In this document: one piece after another, positions 7,047 to 62,222 of the stretch
Numbering within the stretch: the stretch's first letter is position 1
Layout of the letters: each line of letters starts with the position of its first letter
Assembly: GCF_022524485.1 (NCBI RefSeq)
Contig: NZ_JAKXMK010000016.1
Coordinates: forward strand, 124,001-188,000
DNA: 64,000 nucleotides
DNA from: Pseudonocardia alaniniphila
GTDB lineage: Bacteria; Actinomycetota; Actinomycetes; Mycobacteriales; Pseudonocardiaceae
Direction: 5' to 3'
Position numbers and translations under genes: made by a program
The notes under the pieces: generated by a model
Told to the model about the DNA's origin: nothing
Database searches by the model: none
What the model saw: only the letters and a program-made list of their open reading frames with translations

Positions 7047-9392
7047 ATGACAGAGACGCTGAAGCTGCCGGTGCTTCCGCTCGCCGACTCGGTGGTGCTG
7101 CCCGGCATGGTGGTTCCCGTCCGGCTCGACGAGCCGGATGTGCAGGCAGCGGTCGATGCAGCGAACAGCGTCGATCGCAAGGTCCTGATCGTTCCGCGCC
7201 TCGACGGCAAGTACGCCGCAGTGGGCACGATCGCCGTCCTCGAGCAGGTCGGCAGGCTCCCCAGCGGGGAGCGCGCGGCCGTGGTGCGCGGTGAGGGTCG
7301 CGGGCAGATCGGGTCCGGAGTCACCGGCCCCGGTGCCGCGCTGTGGGTGGAGGCGACTCCGATCCCCGACCCGCCCGTCACGGGCAAGGCGACCGAGCTC
7401 GCCAAGGAGTACAAGGCCCTCGTCATCGGGATCCTGCAGCAGCGGGGTGCCTGGCAGGTCATCGACTCGGTGCAGCAGATCACCGACCCCGGCCAGCTCG
7501 CCGACACGGCAGGCTGGGCGTCCTACCTCGACCTGGACCACAAGTCCCAGCTGCTCGCGGAGACCGATCCGGTCAAGAGGCTGGAGCTGCTGATCGAGTG
7601 GACGCGCGAGCACGTCGCCGAGCAGGAGGTCTCCGAGAAGATCGCCAACGACGTCCGCGAGGGCATGGAGAAGACCCAGCGCGAGTTCCTGCTGCGCCAG
7701 CAACTGGCCGCGATCCGCAAGGAGCTGGGTGAGGACGAGCCCGAGGGCGCCGACGACTACCGCACGCGGGTCGAGAACGCCGACCTGCCGGAGCATGTGC
7801 GCAAGGCCGCGCTCACCGAGGTGGGCAAGCTGGAGCGCGCGTCGGACCAGAGCCCGGAGTCGGGCTGGATCCGAACCTGGCTGGACACCGTTCTCGACAT
7901 CCCGTGGACGACGACCACCGAGGACACCGACGACCTCGTTGCCGCCAGGGCGATCCTCGACGCCGACCACGCCGGCCTCGACGACGTCAAGGAGCGGCTG
8001 ATCGAGTTCCTGGCCGTCCGGGCTCGGCGCAACCGCCGCGGCCTCGACAAGGTCGGCGGACGCGGGTCCGGTGCCGTTCTGTCGCTGGTCGGCCCGCCCG
8101 GTGTCGGTAAGACATCGCTGGGTGAGTCGGTCGCGCGGGCCCTGGGCCGCAAGTTCGTCCGCGTCGCCCTGGGTGGTGTGCGGGACGAGGCCGAGATCCG
8201 CGGGCACCGGCGCACCTACGTCGGCGCGCTGCCCGGCCGGATCGTGCGGGCCATCCGCGAGGCGGGCTCGATGAACCCGGTCGTGCTGCTCGACGAGATC
8301 GACAAGGTCGGCAGCGACTTCCGGGGCGACCCGACCGCGGCGCTCCTCGAGGTGCTCGACCCTGCGCAGAACCACACGTTCCGCGACCACTACCTCGAGG
8401 TCGACCTCGACCTGTCGGACGTGCTGTTCCTCGCCACGGCCAACGTGTTCGAGGCCATCCCCGGCCCGCTGGCCGACCGGATGGAGATCGTGACGCTCGA
8501 CGGCTACACCGAGGCGGAGAAGGTCGCCATCGCGCGCGACCACCTGCTGCCGCGCCAGATCGAGAAGGCGGGCCTGGAGCCGTCCGACGTCGAGTTCTCC
8601 GAGGTCGCACTCGGCATGATCGCCGCCGAGTACACGCGCGAGGCGGGTGTGCGGCAGCTGGAGCGTGGCCTCGCGAAGGTCCTGCGGAAGGTGGCCGTGC
8701 AGATCGATGCCGGTGCTGATGCGCGCTCCGCTGACGCTCCGCACGGGGAGGACGTCGAGCGGCCCGTTCACATCGACGCGGACGCGCTGGTGGGCTACCT
8801 CGGCCGGCCGAAGTTCACGCCAGAGACGGCAGAGCGGACGTCCGTGCCCGGTGTCGCCACCGGGCTCGCGGTCACCGGCGCCGGTGGGGACGTGCTGTTC
8901 ATCGAGGCCACCTCGATGGAGGGCGAGCCCGGTCTGACCCTGACCGGCCAGCTGGGTGACGTCATGAAGGAGTCGGTGTCGATCGCGCTGAGCTACCTGC
9001 GCTCCCGCGGCCTGGCCGGCGACCTGGCGTCGCGCAAGCTGCACGTCCACGTGCCGGCGGGCGCCGTGCCGAAGGACGGGCCGAGCGCCGGCATCACGAT
9101 GACCACGGCTCTCGCGTCGCTCGCCAGCGGGCGACCGGTGAAGTCGAACGTCGGGATGACGGGTGAGGTCACGCTGCAGGGCAAGGTCCTGCCGATCGGT
9201 GGTGTCAAGCAGAAGCTGCTGGCCGCGCACCGGGCCGGGCTGACCGACGTGATCATCCCGAAGCGCAACGAGCCCGACCTCGACGATCTGCCGGAGTCGG
9301 TGCGCGGTGAGCTGCGGGTGCACCCGGTGGCCGACGTCGCCGAGGTCCTGAAGCTGGCTCTCGAGCCGGTTCAGGTGGCTACCGCCGCCTGA
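7047..9392 (+). CDS. lon: ATP-dependent Lon protease
   Basis: A 781-residue homohexameric AAA+ serine protease that degrades damaged and regulatory proteins in the cytosol. Order of domains: N-terminal substrate-binding LON domain (about 1-200), helical linker ([20 protein letters not shown]), AAA+ module with Walker [10 protein letters not shown] at about 349 and Walker [11 protein letters not shown], and the C-terminal protease domain with the Ser/Lys dyad in [10 protein letters not shown] (Ser about 680) and [14 protein letters not shown] (Lys about 721). The length matches the family. The ATG at 7047 starts [14 protein letters not shown], the normal Lon N-terminus. Many actinobacteria put lon under HspR; the CTTGAG-type half-sites upstream are compatible but irregular. 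The gene is single, ended by a terminator shared with purU. Confidence 0.98.
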
Positions 9393-9405
9393 TTCCCTAC
9401 CCCAG

Positions 9406-9450
9406 CGAACGGCGCTCTCGTCCGATCCTCACGGACGGGAGCGCCGTTCG
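9406..9450. terminator. Bidirectional terminator between lon and purU
   Basis: A stem of CGAACGGCGCTC (9406-9417) and GAGCGCCGTTCG (9439-9450) with a second inner stem CGTCCG/CGGACG. It lies between two convergent genes and is symmetric, so it can serve both. Confidence 0.88.
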
Positions 9451-9466
9451 TGCGTTCAGGGTGTCG

Positions 9467-10360
<894 letters not shown>

Positions 10361-10441
10361 AAGGAGATCGTGCCTTGTGGCCGACGCGGTGTGGCAGACG
10401 GCATGCTCTCGGCGGCTCGGCCGCAGAGCATCCTGTTATGC

Positions 10442-11704
10442 GTGACTTCACGGGCAAACGGCACCGACGACAAAGCCCGCACCCGCCGTCGCGCAGTAGC
10501 TGCAATGACGTTCGCCACCGGCGTCATCGTCGCCAACAACTACTACGCCCAGCCCCTCGAAGACGCACTCGCCGAGGCGTTCCACGCCACCTCGTCGCAG
10601 GTCGGCGTGGTCCTCACGCTCATCCAGCTGGGCTACGCGTTCGGGCTCGCCACCATCGTGCCCCTGGGTGACCTGCTGGAACGCCGCAAGCTCGTCGTCA
10701 CGATGCTGTCGATGACCGTGGCAGCCATGGTGGTTGTCGCCGTCGCCCCGTCGCTGAGCGTCCTGGGCGCGGCCGCGACGCTCGTCGGGCTCACAACGGT
10801 GGCCGCGCAGGTGCTCGTCCCCTTCGCCGCGCACCTCGCCCCGGAGGGCCGGCAGGGCAAGACGATCAGCACGGTGATGAGCGGGCTGCTGATCGGCGTG
10901 CTGGTCTCGCGGGTCGTGGCGGGGCTGGTGTCGCAAGCGCTCGGCTGGCGTGCGGTGTTCGTGCTCGGTGCCGTGCTCACCGCGGTGGCGGTCGTCCTGC
11001 TGTGGCGCACCCTGCCGGTGCTGCCGCCCGCCACGAAGATGCACTACTTCGCGCTGCTGCGCTCGGTCGTCACCTTGGTGCGTGAGGAGCCGGTGCTGCG
11101 CTGGCGGGTGGTCTACAGCGCGTCGAGCTATGCGGCGTTCAGCGCCCTCTGGACCAGCATCGGCTTCATGCTGGCCGCGCCGCCGCACAACTTCGACCAG
11201 GGCGCCATCGGGCTCTTCGCCCTGTTCGGCGTGGCGGGCGCGGCGGCCGCTCGGTTCGCAGGCCGGTTGGCCGACCGCGGCTGGGCGCACCACGCGGTGG
11301 GCGGGTTCCTGCTCGTCTCGACGCTGGCCTGGCTGCTGATCGGCCAGGGCGCCGGTCCGGGAGTGGGCGCGGTGGTGGCCCTCGCGATCGGGCTGCTGCT
11401 GTTCGACCTCGGCGTGCAGGGCGTGCACGTCAGCAACCAGGCGATCGTCTACGCGCTGCGTCCCGAGGCGCGCAGCAGGCTCAACTCCGCCTATATGACG
11501 CTCTACTTCCTCGGCGGCGCTGTGGGAAGCGGCCTGTCGGCGGCGGCCTACGCGAGCAACGGCTGGTCCGGGGTGTCGGTGCTCGGCGGGGTGCTGCCGG
11601 CGATCGGGCTCGCGTTCTGGCTGGCGGACACCGCCTTCCGGAGGCGCCGAGCACGGGCGGGGACCCGAGCGGTCAGTGTCGCTGCTCCAGCCACTCGCGC
11701 GTGA
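10442..11704 (+). CDS. MFS transporter (AraJ-like drug/sugar efflux type)
   Basis: An approximately 420-residue, twelve-helix major-facilitator protein. The first helix carries TGVIVANNYYAQPLEDALA, a signature of a bacterial MFS subfamily usually annotated as arabinose-efflux-like, and the loop 2-3 motif appears as PLGDLLERRKLV. The GTG at 10442 is the most likely start, since the polar lead-in then fits the family; an upstream in-frame ATG at 10403 would add 13 residues, and neither has a strong ribosome site. Its 3' end overlaps the convergent DUF2505 gene by 32 bases. The substrate is unknown. Confidence 0.85.
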   Translation: MTSRANGTDDKARTRRRAVAAMTFATGVIVANNYYAQPLEDALAEAFHATSSQVGVVLTLIQLGYAFGLATIVPLGDLLERRKLVVTMLSMTVAAMVVVAVAPSLSVLGAAATLVGLTTVAAQVLVPFAAHLAPEGRQGKTISTVMSGLLIGVLVSRVVAGLVSQALGWRAVFVLGAVLTAVAVVLLWRTLPVLPPATKMHYFALLRSVVTLVREEPVLRWRVVYSASSYAAFSALWTSIGFMLAAPPHNFDQGAIGLFALFGVAGAAAARFAGRLADRGWAHHAVGGFLLVSTLAWLLIGQGAGPGVGAVVALAIGLLLFDLGVQGVHVSNQAIVYALRPEARSRLNSAYMTLYFLGGAVGSGLSAAAYASNGWSGVSVLGGVLPAIGLAFWLADTAFRRRRARAGTRAVSVAAPATRA

Positions 11705-47599: not shown

Positions 47600-49252
47600 G
47601 TGAGTCGGCAGAGTCTGGCGAAGGCTCATCAGAAGATCCAGGAGCTCGCCTGGGAGCCGCAGTACCACGAGCCGTACATGAAGTACGGCACCGACTACAC
47701 CTTCCGGAAGGCCGCCAAGAAGGACCCGCTCAAGCAGGTTCTTCGGTCCTACTTCCCCATGGAGGAGGAGAAGGACAACCGCGTGTACGGCGCGCAGGAC
47801 GGCGCCATCCGCGGCAACATGTTCCGCCAGGTCCAGGAACGGTGGCTGGAATGGCAGAAGCTGTTCCTGTCCATCATCCCGCTGCCCGAGATCTCTGCCG
47901 CCCGATCGATGCCGATGCTGTTCCACGTGGTTCCGAACCCGGAGCTGCACAACGGCCAGGCGATCCAGATGATCGACGAGGTTCGGCACAGCACGATCCA
48001 GCAGAACCTCAAGCGGCTGTACATGAACAACTACATCGACCCGGCGGGTTTCAACAACAGCCTGCGCAACTTCCAGAGCGACTACTGCGGCACCATCGGC
48101 CGGCAGTTCGCCGAGGGGTTCATCACCGGTGACGCCATCACCGCGGCCAGCATCTACCTGACGATCGTCGCCGAGACGGCCTTCACGAACACGCTGTTCG
48201 TGGCCATGCCGGCGGAAGCGGCGGCGAACGGCGACTATCTGCTACCCACGGTGTTCCACTCGGTGCAGTCCGACGAGTCGCGGCACATCTCCAACGGCTA
48301 CGCCACCCTGCTGATGGCGTTGTCGGACGAGGACAACCGCCAGCTTCTCGAGCGCGACCTGCGCTATGCGTGGTGGAACAACCACCGCGTGGTGGACGCC
48401 GCCATCGGCACGTTCATCGAGTATGGCACCAAGGACCGCCGTAAGGACCGCGAGTCCTACGCGGAGATGTGGCGTCGCTGGATCTACGACGACTACTACC
48501 GGTCCTACCTGGTGCCGCTCGAGAAGTACGGCCTGACGATCCCGCACGACCTCGTCGAAGAGGCGTGGAAGCAGATCTGGGACAAGGGCTACGTCCACGA
48601 GGTCGCGCAGTTCTTCGCCACCGGTTGGCTCGCCAACTACTGGCGTATCGACGCGATGACCGACGAGGACTTCGAGTGGTTCGAGTACAAGTACCCGGGC
48701 TGGTACAACAAGTACGGGAAGTGGTGGGAGAACTACTCCCGCCTGGCCACGCCCAACGGGCACAACGCGATCGTCGCCGAGGACGTGGACTACGTCTACC
48801 CGCACCGCTGCTGGACCTGCATGGTCCCGTGCCTGGTGCGTGAGGACATGGTCATGGCCGAGGTCAACGGTCAGTGGCGCACGTACTGCCACGAGGTCTG
48901 CCGGTGGACCGACGTCGAGGCCTTCCGGCCGGTCTACCAGGGCCGGGAGACGCCGAACATGGGCCGGCTGGTCGGCCACCGTGAGTGGGAGACCCTCTAC
49001 CACGGGTGGAACTGGGCCGACGTGGTCAAGGACATGGGCTTCGTCCGCGACGACGGCAAGACCATGACGGCGCAGCCGCATCTCGACCTCGACCCCAAGA
49101 AGATGTGGACGCTCGACCACATGCGGCGGATGCCTCCGCTGCTGAGCCCGAACGTCGTGCTCAACGAGATGAGCGACGACGAGCGGCAGGCGTTCCACGC
49201 CGACTACGTCCGCCAGGGGCCGGCCGGACGTCCGGCACCTACCGACGCCTGA
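47600..49252 (+). CDS. prmA: Propane 2-monooxygenase, hydroxylase large subunit
   Basis: A 550-residue alpha subunit of a soluble di-iron monooxygenase (group 5 type). It carries the di-iron centre in which O2 is activated to hydroxylate propane (mainly to 2-propanol) and often phenol, acetone or cyclic ethers. The two iron-binding helix pairs end in [10 protein letters not shown] (about 142) and [10 protein letters not shown] (about 228), each the DExRH motif. The C-terminal half includes the cysteine pair [13 protein letters not shown] at 47600 with GAGGAG upstream. It is followed by reductase, small subunit and coupling protein in the prm/mim order. THF monooxygenase (thm) is a close relative with the same order; the groEL and amidohydrolase downstream favour prm/mim. 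Confidence 0.95.
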
Positions 49253-49268
49253 GCGCGGGTCAGGCGAG

Positions 49269-49298
49269 GGGGGAGGGTCGCGCGAACGGCCCTCCCCC
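49269..49298 (+). terminator. Intra-operon hairpin between prmA and prmB
   Basis: A 9-bp stem of GGGGGAGGG (49269-49277) and CCCTCCCCC (49290-49298) with a 12-base loop, located 16 bases after the prmA stop and 60 bases before prmB. Such a position would let part of the transcripts stop, giving more hydroxylase than reductase, or protect the prmA message from decay. Confidence 0.65.
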
Positions 49299-49358
49299 TG
49301 CTTGGCCCTGCTCGTTCCCTGCTCGTTCCAGAGCACGAGCCGAAGGGCTTGAGATCAG

Positions 49359-50410
49359 TTGGGTGACAAGCACGTCGTCCGGTTCGAACCGGTCGGCATC
49401 GAGATCGAGGTCGACGAGGACCAAACCATCCTGCGCGCCGCGGCCGAGCAGGGTGTCCAGCTCATGCACGGCTGCAAGGAGGGCCAGTGCGCAGCGTGCA
49501 AGTCCTTCGTCCTCGAAGGTGAGGACATCGAGCTCGACAAGTACTCGACCTTCGCGCTCCCGGACTTCGAGAGGGAGGAGGGGCAGACGCTGCTCTGCCG
49601 GGCGCACGCCTACGAGGACCTCGTCATCGAGCTCCTCAACTACGACGAGGAGATCATCCGGGGTGGGCTCCCGCTGCGCACCGGCACGGTCGAGGTGGTG
49701 TCCAACGATGCGGTGACGCACGACATGCGACACCTCGTCGTGCGACTCGTCGAGCCCGAGGAGATCAAGTTCTTCCCCGGGCAGTACATGGACTTCAAGG
49801 TGCCGGGCACCGACGAGAGCCGGTCGTTCTCGATGGCGAACACGCCTAATCGGGACGGTCTCCTGGAGTTCGTCATCAAGATCTACCCGGGCGGGCTGTT
49901 CTCGGAGTACCTCGCCGAGAAGGTCGAGGTCGGGGACCGCCTGCAGGTGGAGGCGCCGTTCGGCACCTTCACCCTCCGCGAGAGCCGCACGTCCGACCTG
50001 CTGTTCGTCGGCGGTGGTGCGGGGATGGCCCCGATGCTCGGACTGCTGAGGTCGATGGCCGAACGAGGGGTCGAGCGCAAGGTCACCTTCTACTACGGCG
50101 CTCGTGGGCTGCGCGACCTCTGCTTCACCGAGGAGCTGGCAGAACTCGGGGGCCGGTTGACCGACTTCACCTACGTCCCTGCGCTGTCGGAGCCGGCGGC
50201 GGACGACGGGTGGAGTGGGGCGACGGGCCTGATCACCGAGGTCGTGAAGAGCCGTGAGTCCGGGTTGGGAGGAGTGGATGCCTATGTCTGCGGTCCGCCG
50301 CCGATGGTGGATGCGGCCATCGCAACGCTGACCGCGCTGGGAGTGAGTGAGAACCAGATCTTCTACGACAAGTTCACCACCACTGGTGAACCGGAAGGCG
50401 AGGACGGCCC

Positions 50411-50414
<4 letters not shown>
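49359..50414 (+). CDS. prmB: Propane monooxygenase reductase
   Basis: A 351-residue electron-transfer protein that passes electrons from NADH to the hydroxylase. The N-terminal ferredoxin domain (about 1-95) holds the 2Fe-2S cysteines in GCKEGQCAACKSF and LLCRAHA. It is followed by an FAD domain (RSFSMANTP, about 148) and an NAD domain (FVGGGAGMAPMLGLLRS, about 212; CGPPPMVDAA). Start is TTG at 49359, weakly spaced from AAGGG; no better in-frame start was seen. Four-base overlap with the next gene. Confidence 0.95.
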
Positions 50415-53759
<3,345 letters not shown>

Positions 53760-53766
53760 ACGCGCC

Positions 53767-54888
53767 ATGTTCACCGTCGGGGGCCAGCGGATCCTCGTCA
53801 TCGACGCCCAGGTGCACGTGTGGGACGCGAGCCCGCACAACCAGGCGATTCCCGACGGCGAGGCCTATGCCACGGACCTGCTGCGCAGGCACCGTGAGCT
53901 CGACGGTGCGGGCCTGCCGCCCCACGACGTGGAGCGCGTCTCCGAGCACAGCCTGACGCGTGACGTCTTCGAGGGCGGCTACGTCGACCGGGCGGTGCTG
54001 CAGCCCGTGGTGCTCGGCGACCTGTTCGTGCTGGGCTTCAGCCCGCTGGAGTGGCACGCGGAGGTCGCCGGGTGGATGCCCGGGCGGTTCGTGCTGAGCG
54101 GTGAGCTCGACCCCGGCGGCGGGCAGCCGGGGGCGCGCGGGCTCGGTCCGCGGGTGCGGCGGTTCGACCTGCGAGGGCTGACGCTGTGCGAACGGCGCAG
54201 GCCTGCGGGCTGGCAGCGGCTGGGCGACCCGTGGCTGCGCCGCACCCTCGCCCGGTGCGGCGCGGCCGGGGCGGACGTCGTGCACATCGGTGTCGGGCCC
54301 TCGACGTTGCCCGCGCCGTGGCGGCGCGAGGAGAAGAGTGCCCCCACATCACCGCCCGGGGTGGCGCGAGACCGCCCGCCTCGGGTGCCGGGATGGGCGG
54401 AGCCCGTGCGGGCGGGCTCCGCCCTCCCGGCGCGGACGCGAGCGGCCGAGCGGGTGGCACCCGCCGGGTTCGACGTGGCGCAGTTCCGGGAGCTGGCCCG
54501 GGCGTTGCCGGACATCCGGTTCGTGCTGGGCGCGGGGTGCCTGCCCGGTCCCCGGCTCTGCCGGCTGGCGGAGCTGCCCAACGTGTACGTCCTGCTCACC
54601 GAGATCCTGCCGTGGACCGACTCACTCGACTTCGCCCACGCGTTCGGGCAGCTCCTCGCGGCGTACGGGCCGGAGCGGCTGCTCTTCGGCAGCGGATACC
54701 CGCTGGTGCGGCCGGGCCGGTTGGTGCGCGAGCTCGCCGCGTACCGGTTCCCCGATGAGCTGCGCCATCGCTACCCGCGCTTCGACACGGCCGCCAAGCG
54801 CGCGGTGCTCGGCGGCAACGCGGCGCGCCTGTACCGGATCGGCAGGGCGGTTCCGGCGGCGTCCACCGCGGTGGCCGCGGGCGCCTGA
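53767..54888 (+). CDS. Amidohydrolase-fold protein of the propane operon, metal site apparently lost
   Basis: A 373-residue protein starting seven bases after groEL, in the position of the amidohydrolase found in prm/mim operons. The TIM-barrel order of amidohydrolase family 2 can be followed, but the metal ligands are poor: strand 1 reads DAQVHVW (one His of HxH), strand 5 VVHIGVG keeps a His, strand 6 reads VLGAGCLPG without His, and strand 8 reads LLFGSGYPL where D is expected in GSDYP. It also has a Pro/Arg-rich insert (about 185-225) containing a perfect 12-bp hairpin at DNA level. Hydrolysis is therefore unlikely; a folding or scaffold role, or decay, is more plausible. Confidence 0.75.
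   Translation: MFTVGGQRILVIDAQVHVWDASPHNQAIPDGEAYATDLLRRHRELDGAGLPPHDVERVSEHSLTRDVFEGGYVDRAVLQPVVLGDLFVLGFSPLEWHAEVAGWMPGRFVLSGELDPGGGQPGARGLGPRVRRFDLRGLTLCERRRPAGWQRLGDPWLRRTLARCGAAGADVVHIGVGPSTLPAPWRREEKSAPTSPPGVARDRPPRVPGWAEPVRAGSALPARTRAAERVAPAGFDVAQFRELARALPDIRFVLGAGCLPGPRLCRLAELPNVYVLLTEILPWTDSLDFAHAFGQLLAAYGPERLLFGSGYPLVRPGRLVRELAAYRFPDELRHRYPRFDTAAKRAVLGGNAARLYRIGRAVPAASTAVAAGA
54395..54424. repeat. Perfect 12-bp inverted repeat inside the amidohydrolase-fold gene
   Basis: GGGCGGAGCCCG (54395-54406) and CGGGCTCCGCCC (54413-54424) with a six-base loop. It falls within the coding segment that looks inserted relative to the family. It may be a palindromic repeat that landed in the gene. 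Confidence 0.7.
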
Positions 54889-54922: not shown

Positions 54923-56650
54923 TCATGGCTCGTCGAGGGTGCCTTCCCGCAGGCGCGTGTAGATGCCGAGGATCTTTCGTGCGTTCTCGACGGCCTCCTC
55001 CATGGGCAGTGAGGTCGCGGTCGGCCGGGAGCCGGGCACCTTCCTGAGGCCCGGCCGGATCGCCCGGTTCTCGAAGCGAAACAGCTCTTGGGTACCGGGG
55101 TCGCGCTGGTCGGCAGCGGGCTGGGCACCGATGCTCTCCAATGCGCCTTCCGTCGCCTGCACGTCCTCGGGGCTGAATTCGGGCTTCGTGGACAGCCATT
55201 GGGCCATCCCGCCTTGCGAGAGGTAGTCGTGACCGTTGGTGATTCCATGGATCCAGGCCTTCACGGTCAGCGAGGCGAGCGCCGGCCGTGGAGCTGCCGG
55301 ATTCGACGGAATCAAGGATGAATCGGGTCGAATCCTCGTTCTTCGCATCTCGTCAAGATTGTTTACCGCGGAGACCAGGGTGTCGACAAGGGCGTCCGGG
55401 GCGGACCGGATCGCTTCTTGTTGTATCCGTGGCACTGCCGAGAACATCTGGACGAAGTTGTTGCGATGAAGCAGTCCCAGGCGGTTCTTGACCAGTTCGA
55501 ATCCCCACTTGCCCGGCACACCGGGCTTGCTGAGCTGACCGGTACAGGCGACGAGCGCCGCAAGAAGGCCCACGAGGTCCCGCGTGTCACCAACGAGCGC
55601 CTCCGTGTACGGGTCCGTTTCCGCCAGTTCTTCGATCATGCCGTCGGCGGCGCCCGGCGCGGCCCCGATGATCTTGAGGTTCCGCGTGGCCACCACGCTC
55701 GACGGATGGACTGTCTCCCGGTCGGGCGTGCGTGCCGTCTTCTCTTCTCTTGCCTCGTCGGGGTCGGGACCGATCCGCCTCATCATCGCGGGTACGTCGG
55801 CGAGCGGCACGCCCGATGTGGACTGCATCTTCACGACGAAACCCGGTGCTCCGCCGGAGAGCAGCAGATCGTTCCCGGGGATATCGTGTGAGCCGCTCAG
55901 ATTGTGCTCTGCGGGCCGCACGAAATCAGTGCCGAGGCTGTCCGCCGATACCGGATACGGTGGGCTACCTGGAACGTCGCCGGGGCCGGTCCGCCCGCGC
56001 ACTTTCTCGAGATCGTGCGTGATGCCGAGCATCCCGCTGGCGGCCGCGTCGAATCCGTCCAGGCCCTCCTCCGTCTCGTCGAACGGATCGGTCACGAACT
56101 CGAGATTGCTTCTCGTGGGTCCCCCGCTGTCGTCTGCTTCCAGCCCGAAGTTGACGCCGGCCTGCAGAAGCGCCTTGCGCTCGACGGGCATGACCCCGTC
56201 GGTGGTGCCGCTCGCCGAGCCCGCGGCAGATTCCGCTGGTGGCTGCAGACCACGGACATGTCGCCACGGGTGCCAGTCCGACGATTCGAACTCGAACCCG
56301 ACCCTGCGCTGTATCGTCGCCGCCAGCGTGTCGGGGGTCTTCTGCGCCTCGTGATTCCCGGGCGCCGACTGCCTGGTCGAGGCCATCGGGCGGGCCTCGG
56401 ATGGACCGTGGTCCGCCGATCGGCCGTCGCCGATGGCGCGGGTGACCGCCGCATTACCGGCCAGCCGCTGCAAGATCAGCATCCGTGACGGAACCGACAG
56501 CGGCCGATGCGCCGGTGCCGGCCCCGATTCATCTGCAGAACTCCGGTTCCGGGCGATAGGACCGACTTGTCCACGAGCCGCTGCGGACAGGCCCTGCGTC
56601 CGGCCGGTAGGCCCGTCATGGTCGTTGGCCGCCCGCGGCACGACCTCCAC
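54923..56650 (-). CDS. Orphan protein with AGNAAV-type N-terminus and ligase-like domain (injection-system cargo-like)
   Basis: A 575-residue protein of unknown function. Near residue 57 it has MLILQRLAGNAAVTRAI, the LQRxAGNAAV motif common at the N-termini of proteins encoded with extracellular contractile injection systems (eCIS) in actinobacteria. A domain from about 115 starts RRVGFEFESSDW and continues NLEFVTDPFDETEEG, then FVVKMQSTSGVPL and ELFRFENRAIRPG near the C-terminus: the G-x-E-x-E and (L/V)EF-VT-P pattern recalls amidoligase/glutamate-cysteine-ligase folds. There are no eCIS structural genes in this window. Codons such as CGA, ATT, GAA and TTG are more frequent than in neighbours, suggesting transfer. 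No signal peptide. GTG at 56650 after GGGGGGTGGAG. Confidence 0.6.
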   Translation of the reverse strand: MEVVPRAANDHDGPTGRTQGLSAAARGQVGPIARNRSSADESGPAPAHRPLSVPSRMLILQRLAGNAAVTRAIGDGRSADHGPSEARPMASTRQSAPGNHEAQKTPDTLAATIQRRVGFEFESSDWHPWRHVRGLQPPAESAAGSASGTTDGVMPVERKALLQAGVNFGLEADDSGGPTRSNLEFVTDPFDETEEGLDGFDAAASGMLGITHDLEKVRGRTGPGDVPGSPPYPVSADSLGTDFVRPAEHNLSGSHDIPGNDLLLSGGAPGFVVKMQSTSGVPLADVPAMMRRIGPDPDEAREEKTARTPDRETVHPSSVVATRNLKIIGAAPGAADGMIEELAETDPYTEALVGDTRDLVGLLAALVACTGQLSKPGVPGKWGFELVKNRLGLLHRNNFVQMFSAVPRIQQEAIRSAPDALVDTLVSAVNNLDEMRRTRIRPDSSLIPSNPAAPRPALASLTVKAWIHGITNGHDYLSQGGMAQWLSTKPEFSPEDVQATEGALESIGAQPAADQRDPGTQELFRFENRAIRPGLRKVPGSRPTATSLPMEEAVENARKILGIYTRLREGTLDEP

Positions 56651-56747: not shown

Positions 56748-58019
56748 TCAGCGGGTCAGCCAGACCCTCCAGAGGGCGGTCGGGTCCGTGAGCGGGTCGC
56801 CGTGCACGAGGCTGAAGTGGGCGGGGTCGCCGACGCGGAGCCGCCCGGCGTGAGGGATCCCGAGCAGGTCACCTCCGCGCCACGTCACCGCCGCCAGTGC
56901 CGTCTGCGGGGAGACCCCCGCCGCGACGAGCGCCTCCACCTCCCAGGCGAGCTGGTTGGCACGCAACGAGCCGCCCCCGAAGTCGGACCCCGCAGCGATC
57001 GTGACGCCGCCGGCGTCGGCGAGCCGCACGCTCGCCCGTGCGATCTCCTGGCGGTCCTGGATCTTCCGGCGTGCATCCGCCTCGGTGAACCGGGGGATGG
57101 CGGTGGTCTGCGCGAAGGTCGACCAGGAGTACAGCACGGAGAGCGTGGCGACCATCGCGACGCCGCCCGCCTTCATGAGGGCCACCGTGTCGTCGTCGAG
57201 CTCGTAGGCATGCTCGAGGCTGTCCACCCCCGCTTCCGCGCCGACGCGGTTGCCGGACAGAGCCGTGGCATGGGCGGCGACCGTGGCACCGCGATCGTGG
57301 GCCACCTGCACCGCCGCGCCGACCTCCGAGACGGTGAAGGGGGCGGTGTCCAGGTCGGGCCCGTCGAGGTACAGCTTGACCAGGTCGGCACCCTCGTCGA
57401 GCTGCTGCCGCACCGCGCCGACGAGGTCGGCACCGTGCTCCACCTCGACGGTCAGGCCCTCTGGCAGAGCGCCCTTGCGACTGACCCAGGTGCCCGCCGC
57501 GCGGATGTACGGGCGATCCTGCCTGCCCTGCCACCGGTTGCGCAGGAGCAGGCTCACCGCCCGTTCGTCGCCGCTCCCCGGGTCGAGCCTGCGGGGTGAG
57601 CCGACGTCCCGGGCCCATCGGATGCCGGCACGCAGCATCAGCTCGGCGTTCTCCTCACCGACCGCGAGCAGCTCGTCCAGCGGGTCTGCGCCGCGTTCGA
57701 TCCAGCGGGCCCCGCCGGGCATCGACACGTGGGCGTGGGAGTCGACCATGCCCGGCACGATCGACGTGCCCGCGCCGTCGACCACCGTGACGTCGCCGAG
57801 TGATCGGGGATCCGGATGGTCTCCCTCGGTCCACAAGCCGGTCACCGTTCCGTGCTCCGCCAGGAGCCACACGCCCGGAACGAGGGTGGGGGAATGCCCG
57901 TCGGCGAGCGCGGCGTCCGTGACGAGAACACGTGCGGCGCCCAGCCGCGAGCCCATTGTGTGATCCACACCTGTCACCCAAGCACGCTGCCCTGTGTCAG
58001 CGGCGCCGTCGGGGGTCAC
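56748..58019 (-). CDS. Amidohydrolase (imidazolonepropionase-like)
   Basis: A 423-residue metal-dependent hydrolase with an intact site: HxH in VDSHAHVSM (about 93), a candidate carboxylated Lys in LVKLYLDG (about 215), His in AAHATAL and LEHAYEL (about 250-270) and Asp in AAGSDFGGG (about 344). It suits cleavage of a cyclic amide or dipeptide. The GTG start overlaps the stop of the MHS transporter (GTGA); an internal ATG (MGSRLGAARVLV) is possible. Transporter and hydrolase are probably one uptake-and-degradation unit; substrate unknown. Confidence 0.87.
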   Translation of the reverse strand: MTPDGAADTGQRAWVTGVDHTMGSRLGAARVLVTDAALADGHSPTLVPGVWLLAEHGTVTGLWTEGDHPDPRSLGDVTVVDGAGTSIVPGMVDSHAHVSMPGGARWIERGADPLDELLAVGEENAELMLRAGIRWARDVGSPRRLDPGSGDERAVSLLLRNRWQGRQDRPYIRAAGTWVSRKGALPEGLTVEVEHGADLVGAVRQQLDEGADLVKLYLDGPDLDTAPFTVSEVGAAVQVAHDRGATVAAHATALSGNRVGAEAGVDSLEHAYELDDDTVALMKAGGVAMVATLSVLYSWSTFAQTTAIPRFTEADARRKIQDRQEIARASVRLADAGGVTIAAGSDFGGGSLRANQLAWEVEALVAAGVSPQTALAAVTWRGGDLLGIPHAGRLRVGDPAHFSLVHGDPLTDPTALWRVWLTR

Positions 58020-61542: not shown

Positions 61543-61935
61543 TCAGACCGGGGCTGCCGCCGGGATCCCGTGCGCCGCCGCGGCGTCCAGGAGTCGCTCG
61601 TCATAGCTCAGCAGGACAGAGAGCTCCTCCCGCACGAGCAGCGCCGTGGCGAGGTGGATGGCGTCGAGCGAGCGGAGCATCGGACCCGGGAGTCGAGCGG
61701 CTGATTCGATGACGGCTGCGGAGATCTCGATCTGCGTGACAGTGGTGAGCAGGATGTCGATCCGCGGTAGTCGTGCCGGATTCGATCGCATGGTGCCGCG
61801 CCGGGCTTCCACGGTGATGAGGGCACTGGAGACGAGGCCTGGTGCGCCGTCGGCCGCCAGGTAGTCCCGCAGCGCTCCCGACTCCGCCTCGTCGCGCACG
61901 AGCTTGAGCAGCGCCGACGTGTCGATGTAGATCAA
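61543..61935 (-). CDS. vapC: VapC-type PIN-domain toxin
   Basis: A 130-residue PIN ribonuclease. The four acidic residues of the Mg2+ site are in place: Asp5 (YIDTSALLKLV), Glu about 43 (TVEARRG), Asp about 91 (SLDAIHLATALL) and Asp about 110 (SYDERLLDAA). VapC toxins cleave tRNA or rRNA and stop growth. Its ATG overlaps the antitoxin stop by four bases. It is convergent with mtnA, only four bases apart. Confidence 0.93.
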   Translation of the reverse strand: MIYIDTSALLKLVRDEAESGALRDYLAADGAPGLVSSALITVEARRGTMRSNPARLPRIDILLTTVTQIEISAAVIESAARLPGPMLRSLDAIHLATALLVREELSVLLSYDERLLDAAAAHGIPAAAPV

Positions 61936-62222
61936 TACCGTTCCTCGTCGCGCATCTGCCGAAGCACATCGGACGGCGAGGGTTCGCCCGGCTCCGCCGG
62001 TGGCGGCGGGAGTAGGTCGAGGATGTTCCCGCGGCCTCGCCGCAGCTGCCCGGCTGCCTCGAGCCGGTCGAGGATCGAGGTCGGCTCCTCGGCCGGTACG
62101 AGATACGCCACCAGCTCGCCCCGTACCGTGACCGGCACCCGCTTCCCGGCCTTGGCCATGGCGACGTACCGCGAGGCGTGCTGGCGCAGCTCGCGGATGC
62201 CGATGCTCTCAGGGTCACCCAC
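61932..62222 (-). CDS. vapB: Antitoxin of the Phd/YefM type (VapB role)
   Basis: A 96-residue protein. The N-terminal half (IGIRELRQHASRYVAMAKAG, about 7-26; PVTVRGELVAYLVP) is a Phd/YefM DNA-binding fold; the C-terminal 40 residues are acidic/Pro-rich and would wrap the toxin. Complex-mediated autorepression is normal for the family, and a palindrome sits nine bases upstream of the start. Confidence 0.92.
   Translation of the reverse strand: MGDPESIGIRELRQHASRYVAMAKAGKRVPVTVRGELVAYLVPAEEPTSILDRLEAAGQLRRGRGNILDLLPPPPAEPGEPSPSDVLRQMRDEERY

Follow-up and report, generated by a model that had tools for sequence, protein, structure and literature searches.

The 64,000-nt stretch of Pseudonocardia alaniniphila DNA analysed here, called the window throughout, contains a gene whose product is probably a real and functional orphan cargo of an extracellular contractile injection system (eCIS), a type of system already known. 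The original prediction, made from the letters of the window, had described an orphan injection-system cargo with an amidoligase-like core. The first half of that description is borne out: the genome encodes an eCIS, the leader of the protein resembles one found on a DUF4157 protein of the eCIS cluster, and homologous C-terminal domains, which we term payloads, lie inside eCIS loci or co-occur with them. The interpretation that we prefer, at roughly even confidence, is that the protein is a cargo of the genome's own eCIS that is encoded away from the apparatus, sorted by its leader, served by an adaptor in trans and injected, and that its payload is of the amidoligase type.

A leader shared with an eCIS protein of the same genome

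The cargo gene occupies positions 54923–56650 on the minus strand and encodes 575 amino acids from a GTG start. The open reading frame (ORF) proposed at this interval is real; its strand, which the original prediction had not given, was established from the ORF reading of the window, in which the plus-strand frame of the same interval has four stops. The string LQRLAGNAAV, previously placed near residue 60, spans residues 60–69, and GFEFE and LEFVTDPF follow at residues 118–122 and 183–190. When 579 stop-to-stop frames of at least 60 amino acids from the window were searched with a profile of the leader derived from 20 payload-free DUF4157 proteins, the cargo ORF ranked first with an E value of 1.8e-10, which is optimistic because the profile is partly circular (most of the 20 proteins were fetched by a leader-containing alignment, and the pattern QRxxGN served to select every one of them). 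The runner-up had an E value of 0.25, and a chance occurrence of the leader, including its AGNAAV portion, was rejected on this comparison.

The full leader, RMLILQRLAGNAAVTR, is nearly identical to RMLALQRLAGNAAVTR in a small, 205-amino-acid DUF4157 protein encoded in the eCIS cluster on another contig, C94. Two homologues at 40% identity retain the leader as LQRQIGNAAVSR, together with the downstream motifs VQRKVGFEFE and IEFVTKPF, and the leader is kept in all three copies of the payload in the window genome. It is common to the cargo protein and the DUF4157 proteins of this study, it is not named as a feature of eCIS-associated toxins in the available excerpts of PMC8213781 and PMC11297309, and no description of the leader strings was found in the open-access literature.

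A profile search for eCIS elsewhere in the genome, which had been suggested as a check, found PF13699 (eCIS_core, the DUF4157 family) at six places. Contig C94 carries a complete, Pfam-confirmed eCIS comprising Pvc16_N, an AAA ATPase, a sheath, two gp19 tubes, a CIS_tube protein with LysM, a spike hub, gp25 and Baseplate_J; the interval from the AAA gene to the sheath gene contains the gene for the 205-amino-acid DUF4157 protein and one further ORF, also reversed. The sole sheath match of the genome is on C94 and the window is on C25, and the cargo gene itself is neither in nor beside an eCIS operon. With the genome's own eCIS proteins as queries, phmmer found no eCIS gene in the window, which agrees with the earlier statement that sheath, tube, baseplate and AAA+ ATPase genes are missing nearby. 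Although the cargo gene is an orphan, the same genome encodes an apparatus by which its product could be used.

Two very large DUF4157 proteins, with frames of 2208 and 2341 amino acids, are encoded near the eCIS cluster at positions 69469 and 76487 of C94; these are likely large cargos.

Payload homologues inside and alongside eCIS

A payload profile found two more copies in the window genome, one on contig C72 (leader, DUF4157 relic, payload) and one on contig C24 (leader, DUF4157, payload). A scan of species genomes with a profile of five closer sequences led by the C24 paralogue returned 33 payload loci from seven phyla (Actinomycetota, Pseudomonadota, Myxococcota, Cyanobacteriota, Chloroflexota, Acidobacteriota and Bacteroidota) and from unclassified bacteria. 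DUF4157 is present in 23 of the 33 loci and stands in the payload ORF, ahead of the payload, in 22.

At least two eCIS apparatus genes lie near the payload in seven of the 33 loci (L069, L072, L074, L075, L078, L087 and L088), a lower bound given that the queries were the window genome's eCIS proteins and distant eCIS types would escape them. These seven loci belong to Actinomycetota and Cyanobacteriota, and three of them (L072, L075 and L078) have the AAA gene on one side of the payload gene and the sheath on the other. The payload also lies within 1 kb of a sheath gene in genomes G314, G385, G898 and G870, some of which overlap with the 33 loci.

Co-occurrence was assessed in 297 genomes of the window's bacterial family, 19 of which have the payload (four, G330, G967, G792 and G930, on short partial matches) and 138 a sheath match at E 1e-40 or better, a cut-off that may admit phage sheaths. 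A sheath was found in 18 of the 19 payload genomes against 120 of the 278 without the payload (one-sided Fisher P 6e-6, kinship ignored). In the genus of the window, at least 23 genomes of which were sampled, the payload occurs only in G000 and G974, and no other sampled genome of the genus has a near-identical sheath (91% between these two; the match in G969 is weaker). The original prediction was to be abandoned if homologues never occurred in genomes with eCIS; the survey found them in such genomes, in part physically linked to the apparatus.

Layout of the cargo protein

The segments of the gene are as follows.

54923–56650, minus strand: whole gene, probable orphan eCIS-type cargo protein of 575 amino acids (ORF, homologues, G+C content at third codon positions (GC3) of 0.785)
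56486–56650, minus strand: N-terminal hydrophilic, probably disordered extension, residues 1–55 (sequence inspection)
56438–56485, minus strand: leader, residues 56–71 (leader profile; near-identity to the C94 protein)
56315–56437, minus strand: linker, residues 72–112, at the position of DUF4157 in many relatives (no DUF4157 detected)
56306–56314, minus strand: junction tripeptide IQR, residues 113–115, on the N-terminal edge of the payload (payload alignment)
54926–56314, minus strand: payload domain, putatively ligase-like, residues 113–575 (30-sequence alignment A6)

The excerpts of PMC11297309 describe eCIS cargo as having an N-terminus that is hydrophilic and disordered. Whole-protein searches of the cargo protein gave no match in Pfam, NCBIfam or PDB sequences. 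Neither DUF4157 (PF13699) nor any other Pfam family was detected in it, the DUF4157 profile is silent on the linker, and Pfam finds no HExxH-bearing eCIS_core domain above the curated cut-off. The absence of DUF4157 from an eCIS cargo is, according to the portions of PMC11297309 available, not necessarily informative.

A widespread, previously unnamed payload family

The payload family is widespread, was unnamed before and matches no Pfam or NCBIfam model. Alignment A6 comprises 30 rows, namely the window protein and 29 of the 38 listed stretches, with three starts and two ends moved; nine stretches were left out (mostly redundant copies and one broken gene), and three shorter ones fell outside the listing. 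For none of the 30 members did the payload (residues 113–575 of the cargo protein) match a ligase model in Pfam or NCBIfam, the few weak single matches being to unrelated models, and the payload profile had no match among PDB sequences. A query with the single protein found no close relative among genome contigs, and no relative was found in viral contigs or plasmids.

In a maximum-likelihood tree of 35 payloads, from which duplicate rows of A5 and A6 had been removed and in which nine inner forks are weak and long branches are present, the window gene groups with the homologue of G150 (support 100/100). The C72 and C24 paralogues, bearing the DUF4157 relic and the full DUF4157, respectively, are sisters (100/99), and the Dyella and Massilia sequences nest with Actinosynnema and these two paralogues; payloads have probably moved between phyla. 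Leader–payload proteins without a full DUF4157 occupy four separate places in the tree (the window protein with L003, L059, L061 and L053), which indicates that DUF4157 was lost or gained more than once. The C72 protein, L059, reads as a natural deletion intermediate of DUF4157, as judged from its sequence: at frame residues 279–307, 29 positions from near the DUF4157 N-terminus are left and the HExxH part is gone (E 1e-4, six-sequence set).

Two other arrangements were noted among the loci. In L083 (Streptacidiphilus, 8153–10474), the DUF4157 part and the payload are in different overlapping frames, reflecting a broken gene or a sequencing error. Three contigs of one Cytophagales metagenome-assembled genome (L068, L070 and L092) carry groups of three, four and two payload genes, respectively, without DUF4157 or the strict leader pattern.

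Divergent payloads also keep company with toxin domains. G954, the one payload genome without a sheath match, has a divergent payload in a giant ORF (L202, a frame of 6,167 amino acids) with the Pfam domains ART and Gln_amidase; the shorter pieces list both domains and the full-length scan lists Gln_amidase only, the pieces belonging to one frame. In G973 (L201), a divergent payload lies inside a frame of 11,685 amino acids with Gln_deamidase_2. These toxin-like ORFs of the same bacterial family resemble the cargo protein in bearing the payload domain and differ from it in these added domains, which suggests that the payload is a toxin module shared between different large proteins.

Amidoligase-like features of the payload

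Twelve payload positions are invariant in the 30 rows of A6 (Q114, G118, E120, E122, E184, Q276, K388, W466, D475, G508, E527 and R529), and R396 is present in 29. All 30 sequences contain, in order, E120-x-E122, E184 and E527-x-R529. We take the E-x-E, the acidic metal ligand and the E-x-R to be amidoligase-type residues, with roles presumed from glutamine synthetase. For comparison, an alignment of phage Amidoligase_2 proteins (A9) has 33 rows, six of the 39 first-named having been left out, one of them (L160) with a stop; its founding member is matched by PF12224, and phage TC6 is the source of the annotated ligases. It displays E-x-E-x-E, E52, H-V-H, R126 and E-F-R in the same order. The payload therefore resembles the Amidoligase_2 (PF12224) and COOH-NH2_lig (PF14395) proteins of phages in the succession of E-x-E, E-[FY]-V-x-P and, near the C-terminus, E-x-R. 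It differs from them in giving no hidden Markov model (HMM) match, in its size (about 460 amino acids, against 315 and 287 for the two proteins of phage TC6) and at the HxH position: H91-V-H93 is invariant in the 33 phage proteins, and the payload has Q276-x-T278 instead, with Q in 30 of 30.

Profile comparison by hhalign aligned the payload segment LEADDS..LEFVTDPF with the motif E.DGS..EYVL.KP at a probability of 30% (E 5e-4, 29 columns). With a compacted alignment, the probability was 5.7%; none of 150 block shuffles scored as high, the best reaching 25.2 against 27.0 observed. Cross-HMM searches gave a best E value of 0.0018, in tiny sets. PF12224 was found in none of 100 genomes of the phylum, a result that is uninformative because 14 controls were also silent. 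The earlier likening of GFEFE and LEFVTDPF to strands of COOH-NH2 ligases is thus upheld for the pattern and order of invariant residues; it falls short in that the HxH is absent and the profile comparison is weak. An amidoligase-like core with ligase chemistry is plausible on these sequence features.

A tripeptide at the domain junctions

The N edge of the payload is marked by a tripeptide with Q in 30 and R in 28 of the 30 payload sequences. A corresponding [VI]QR precedes DUF4157 in 39 of 50 proteins and follows it in 37 of 45, these being the members with enough sequence among 51 distinct DUF4157 proteins, which are related and do not give independent counts. The reversed tripeptide, [VI]RQ, is absent from all 50 and all 45, and the highest counts among 500 shuffles were 6 (before) and 8 (after). 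Among DUF4157 proteins that lack the payload family and have enough sequence, [VI]QR follows the domain in 16 of 19. A plasmid set, consisting of ten of 66 matching records (L190–L199) chosen by their DUF4157 domain alone, two of them from one species, has [VI]QR before DUF4157 in 8 of 10 and after it in 8 of 9, with no reversed form; the QRxxGN leader occurs in 4 of 10, and a Rhodococcus locus lacks either tag. No description of the [VI]QR tags was found in the open-access literature.

The recurrence of [VI]QR at either boundary of DUF4157, and at the N-terminal boundary of unrelated payloads, makes a processing or recognition site possible. A bolder conjecture, to which we give little credence, is a general cargo code of leader–QR–DUF4157–QR–payload. 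Cleavage at [VI]QR, whether by DUF4157 itself (putatively an HExxH metallopeptidase) or by a different protease, would release the payload, an injected toxin family making amide bonds. The window protein and other cargos that lack DUF4157 would retain both leader and QR tag and depend on handling in trans.

Proposed mechanism and alternatives

For the loading, delivery, fold, chemistry and target of the cargo protein, we infer the following course. The leader, LQRxAGNxAV, would be the signal by which the protein is sorted to the particle. Because the cargo protein lacks DUF4157, it would probably rely on the small C94 DUF4157 protein as an adaptor in trans, by analogy with the DUF4157 partner of a Streptomyces lividans effector. 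It would then be packed, fired into a target cell and released. There, the payload would work as a glutamine-synthetase-like (amidoligase-type) carboxylate–amine ligase, dependent on ATP and metal, and would make or modify amide bonds on a target molecule, with toxic or regulatory effect.

Several points weigh against this interpretation. The HxH of amidoligases is replaced by Q-x-T-x-G in the payload. The profile match covers 29 columns, drops on compaction and barely exceeds the best shuffle, and PF12224 and PF14395 match none of the 30 payload members at E 1. In a positive control, two annotated ligase families failed to find each other, so that the profile tests have little power in either direction. 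The strict leader pattern is present in the payload ORF in only 13 of the 33 loci. Finally, the co-occurrence statistic ignores relatedness and includes both the partial payload matches and the possible phage sheaths mentioned above.

The protein might accordingly be an eCIS cargo whose payload is no ligase, either because its fold is unrelated to glutamine synthetase or because it is a catalytically dead derivative acting by binding. We regard this as unlikely but credible: the silence of every ligase model on 30 members, the missing HxH and the weak profile comparison speak for it, whereas catalysis is suggested by the twelve positions, E-x-E, E and E-x-R among them, that never vary in 30 sequences from several phyla, and the order of the motifs matches that of Amidoligase_2. 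A glutamine-synthetase-like fold could instead be run backwards, as a hydrolase or deamidase that removes amide-linked groups, like Dop in pupylation. The excerpts of PMC7947786 describe PafA and Dop as homologous and mechanistically similar, one ligating and the other hydrolysing; moreover, the divergent payload shares ORFs with glutamine deamidase domains, and the missing HxH suggests an altered metal site. No sequence feature identified here separates a ligase from a hydrolase, and we consider the reverse reaction improbable.

It is very doubtful that the protein is not delivered at all and is instead an orphan, newly acquired or in decay, with a leader that survives as a fossil from an ancestral DUF4157 protein. 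Such a history would fit a gene that is on a different contig from the eCIS, has the lowest GC3 of 11 genes measured and lacks DUF4157, with a C72 paralogue that has a DUF4157 relic only. It sits poorly with an intact ORF that keeps all the family-invariant residues, with a leader that is conserved in the two 40%-identical homologues, both from genomes with eCIS sheaths, and with the four separate places in the tree at which leader–payload proteins lack a full DUF4157.

Genomic surroundings

The GC3 of the cargo gene, 0.785, compares with 0.884–0.949 in ten other genes of the window, in keeping with the earlier remark that its base composition is less GC-rich than the flanks. The accompanying suggestion that the gene may be transferred is compatible with this lower GC3; no empty site or vehicle was shown. 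In a synteny search for an empty site, an amidohydrolase-like neighbour was found at E 1e-60 in one of 60 genus genomes, that of the window itself, so that no empty-site comparison is possible.

The neighbouring genes were named by eye. An amidohydrolase-like gene (53767–54888, plus strand) is tail to tail with the cargo gene, and another (56748–58019, minus strand) lies just upstream of it. Positions 47600–54888 on the plus strand hold a candidate soluble di-iron (propane-type) monooxygenase cluster with a reductase, a coupling protein, a dedicated GroEL and an amidohydrolase. Two small overlapping genes at 61543–62222 on the minus strand resemble a PIN-domain toxin and a Phd-like antitoxin.

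Relation to known systems and implications

Most homologues of the cargo protein share the plan of the eCIS-associated toxins with N-terminal DUF4157 (PF13699) that appear in the excerpts of PMC8213781 and PMC11297309, that is, DUF4157 followed by a C-terminal payload, and they share the linkage to eCIS. The window protein departs from that plan in lacking DUF4157, in being unlinked to the apparatus and in having a payload outside the Pfam and NCBIfam models. A closer parallel is found in S. lividans, where, according to the available part of PMC13277306, the DUF4157-less contractile injection system effector Sle1 interacts with a small DUF4157 partner, Sle2, as a possible link to the baseplate. 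Here, too, an effector without DUF4157 is accompanied by a small DUF4157 protein, whose gene lies in reversed orientation upstream of the sheath gene of the eCIS cluster, which makes the Sle1–Sle2 pair a model for loading in trans; the window protein differs from Sle1 in being unlinked, in its payload and in the shortness of its leader. No conserved loading sequence is reported for Pvc and Afp in the excerpts of PMC11297309 and PMC8213781, which also call the role of DUF4157 elusive.

The payload family offers a natural test of that role, in that the same payload occurs with DUF4157, with a relic of it and with none. The eCIS particles would gain amide-bond chemistry if the payload is a ligase of the glutamine-synthetase-like kind; comparable chemistry is predicted for ATP-grasp proteins of type VI secretion system loci in the part of PMC4431377 available. 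No paper that brings amidoligases and contractile injection together was found in the open-access literature. More generally, an eCIS cargo such as this one can be missed when scans cover only the genes near the apparatus.
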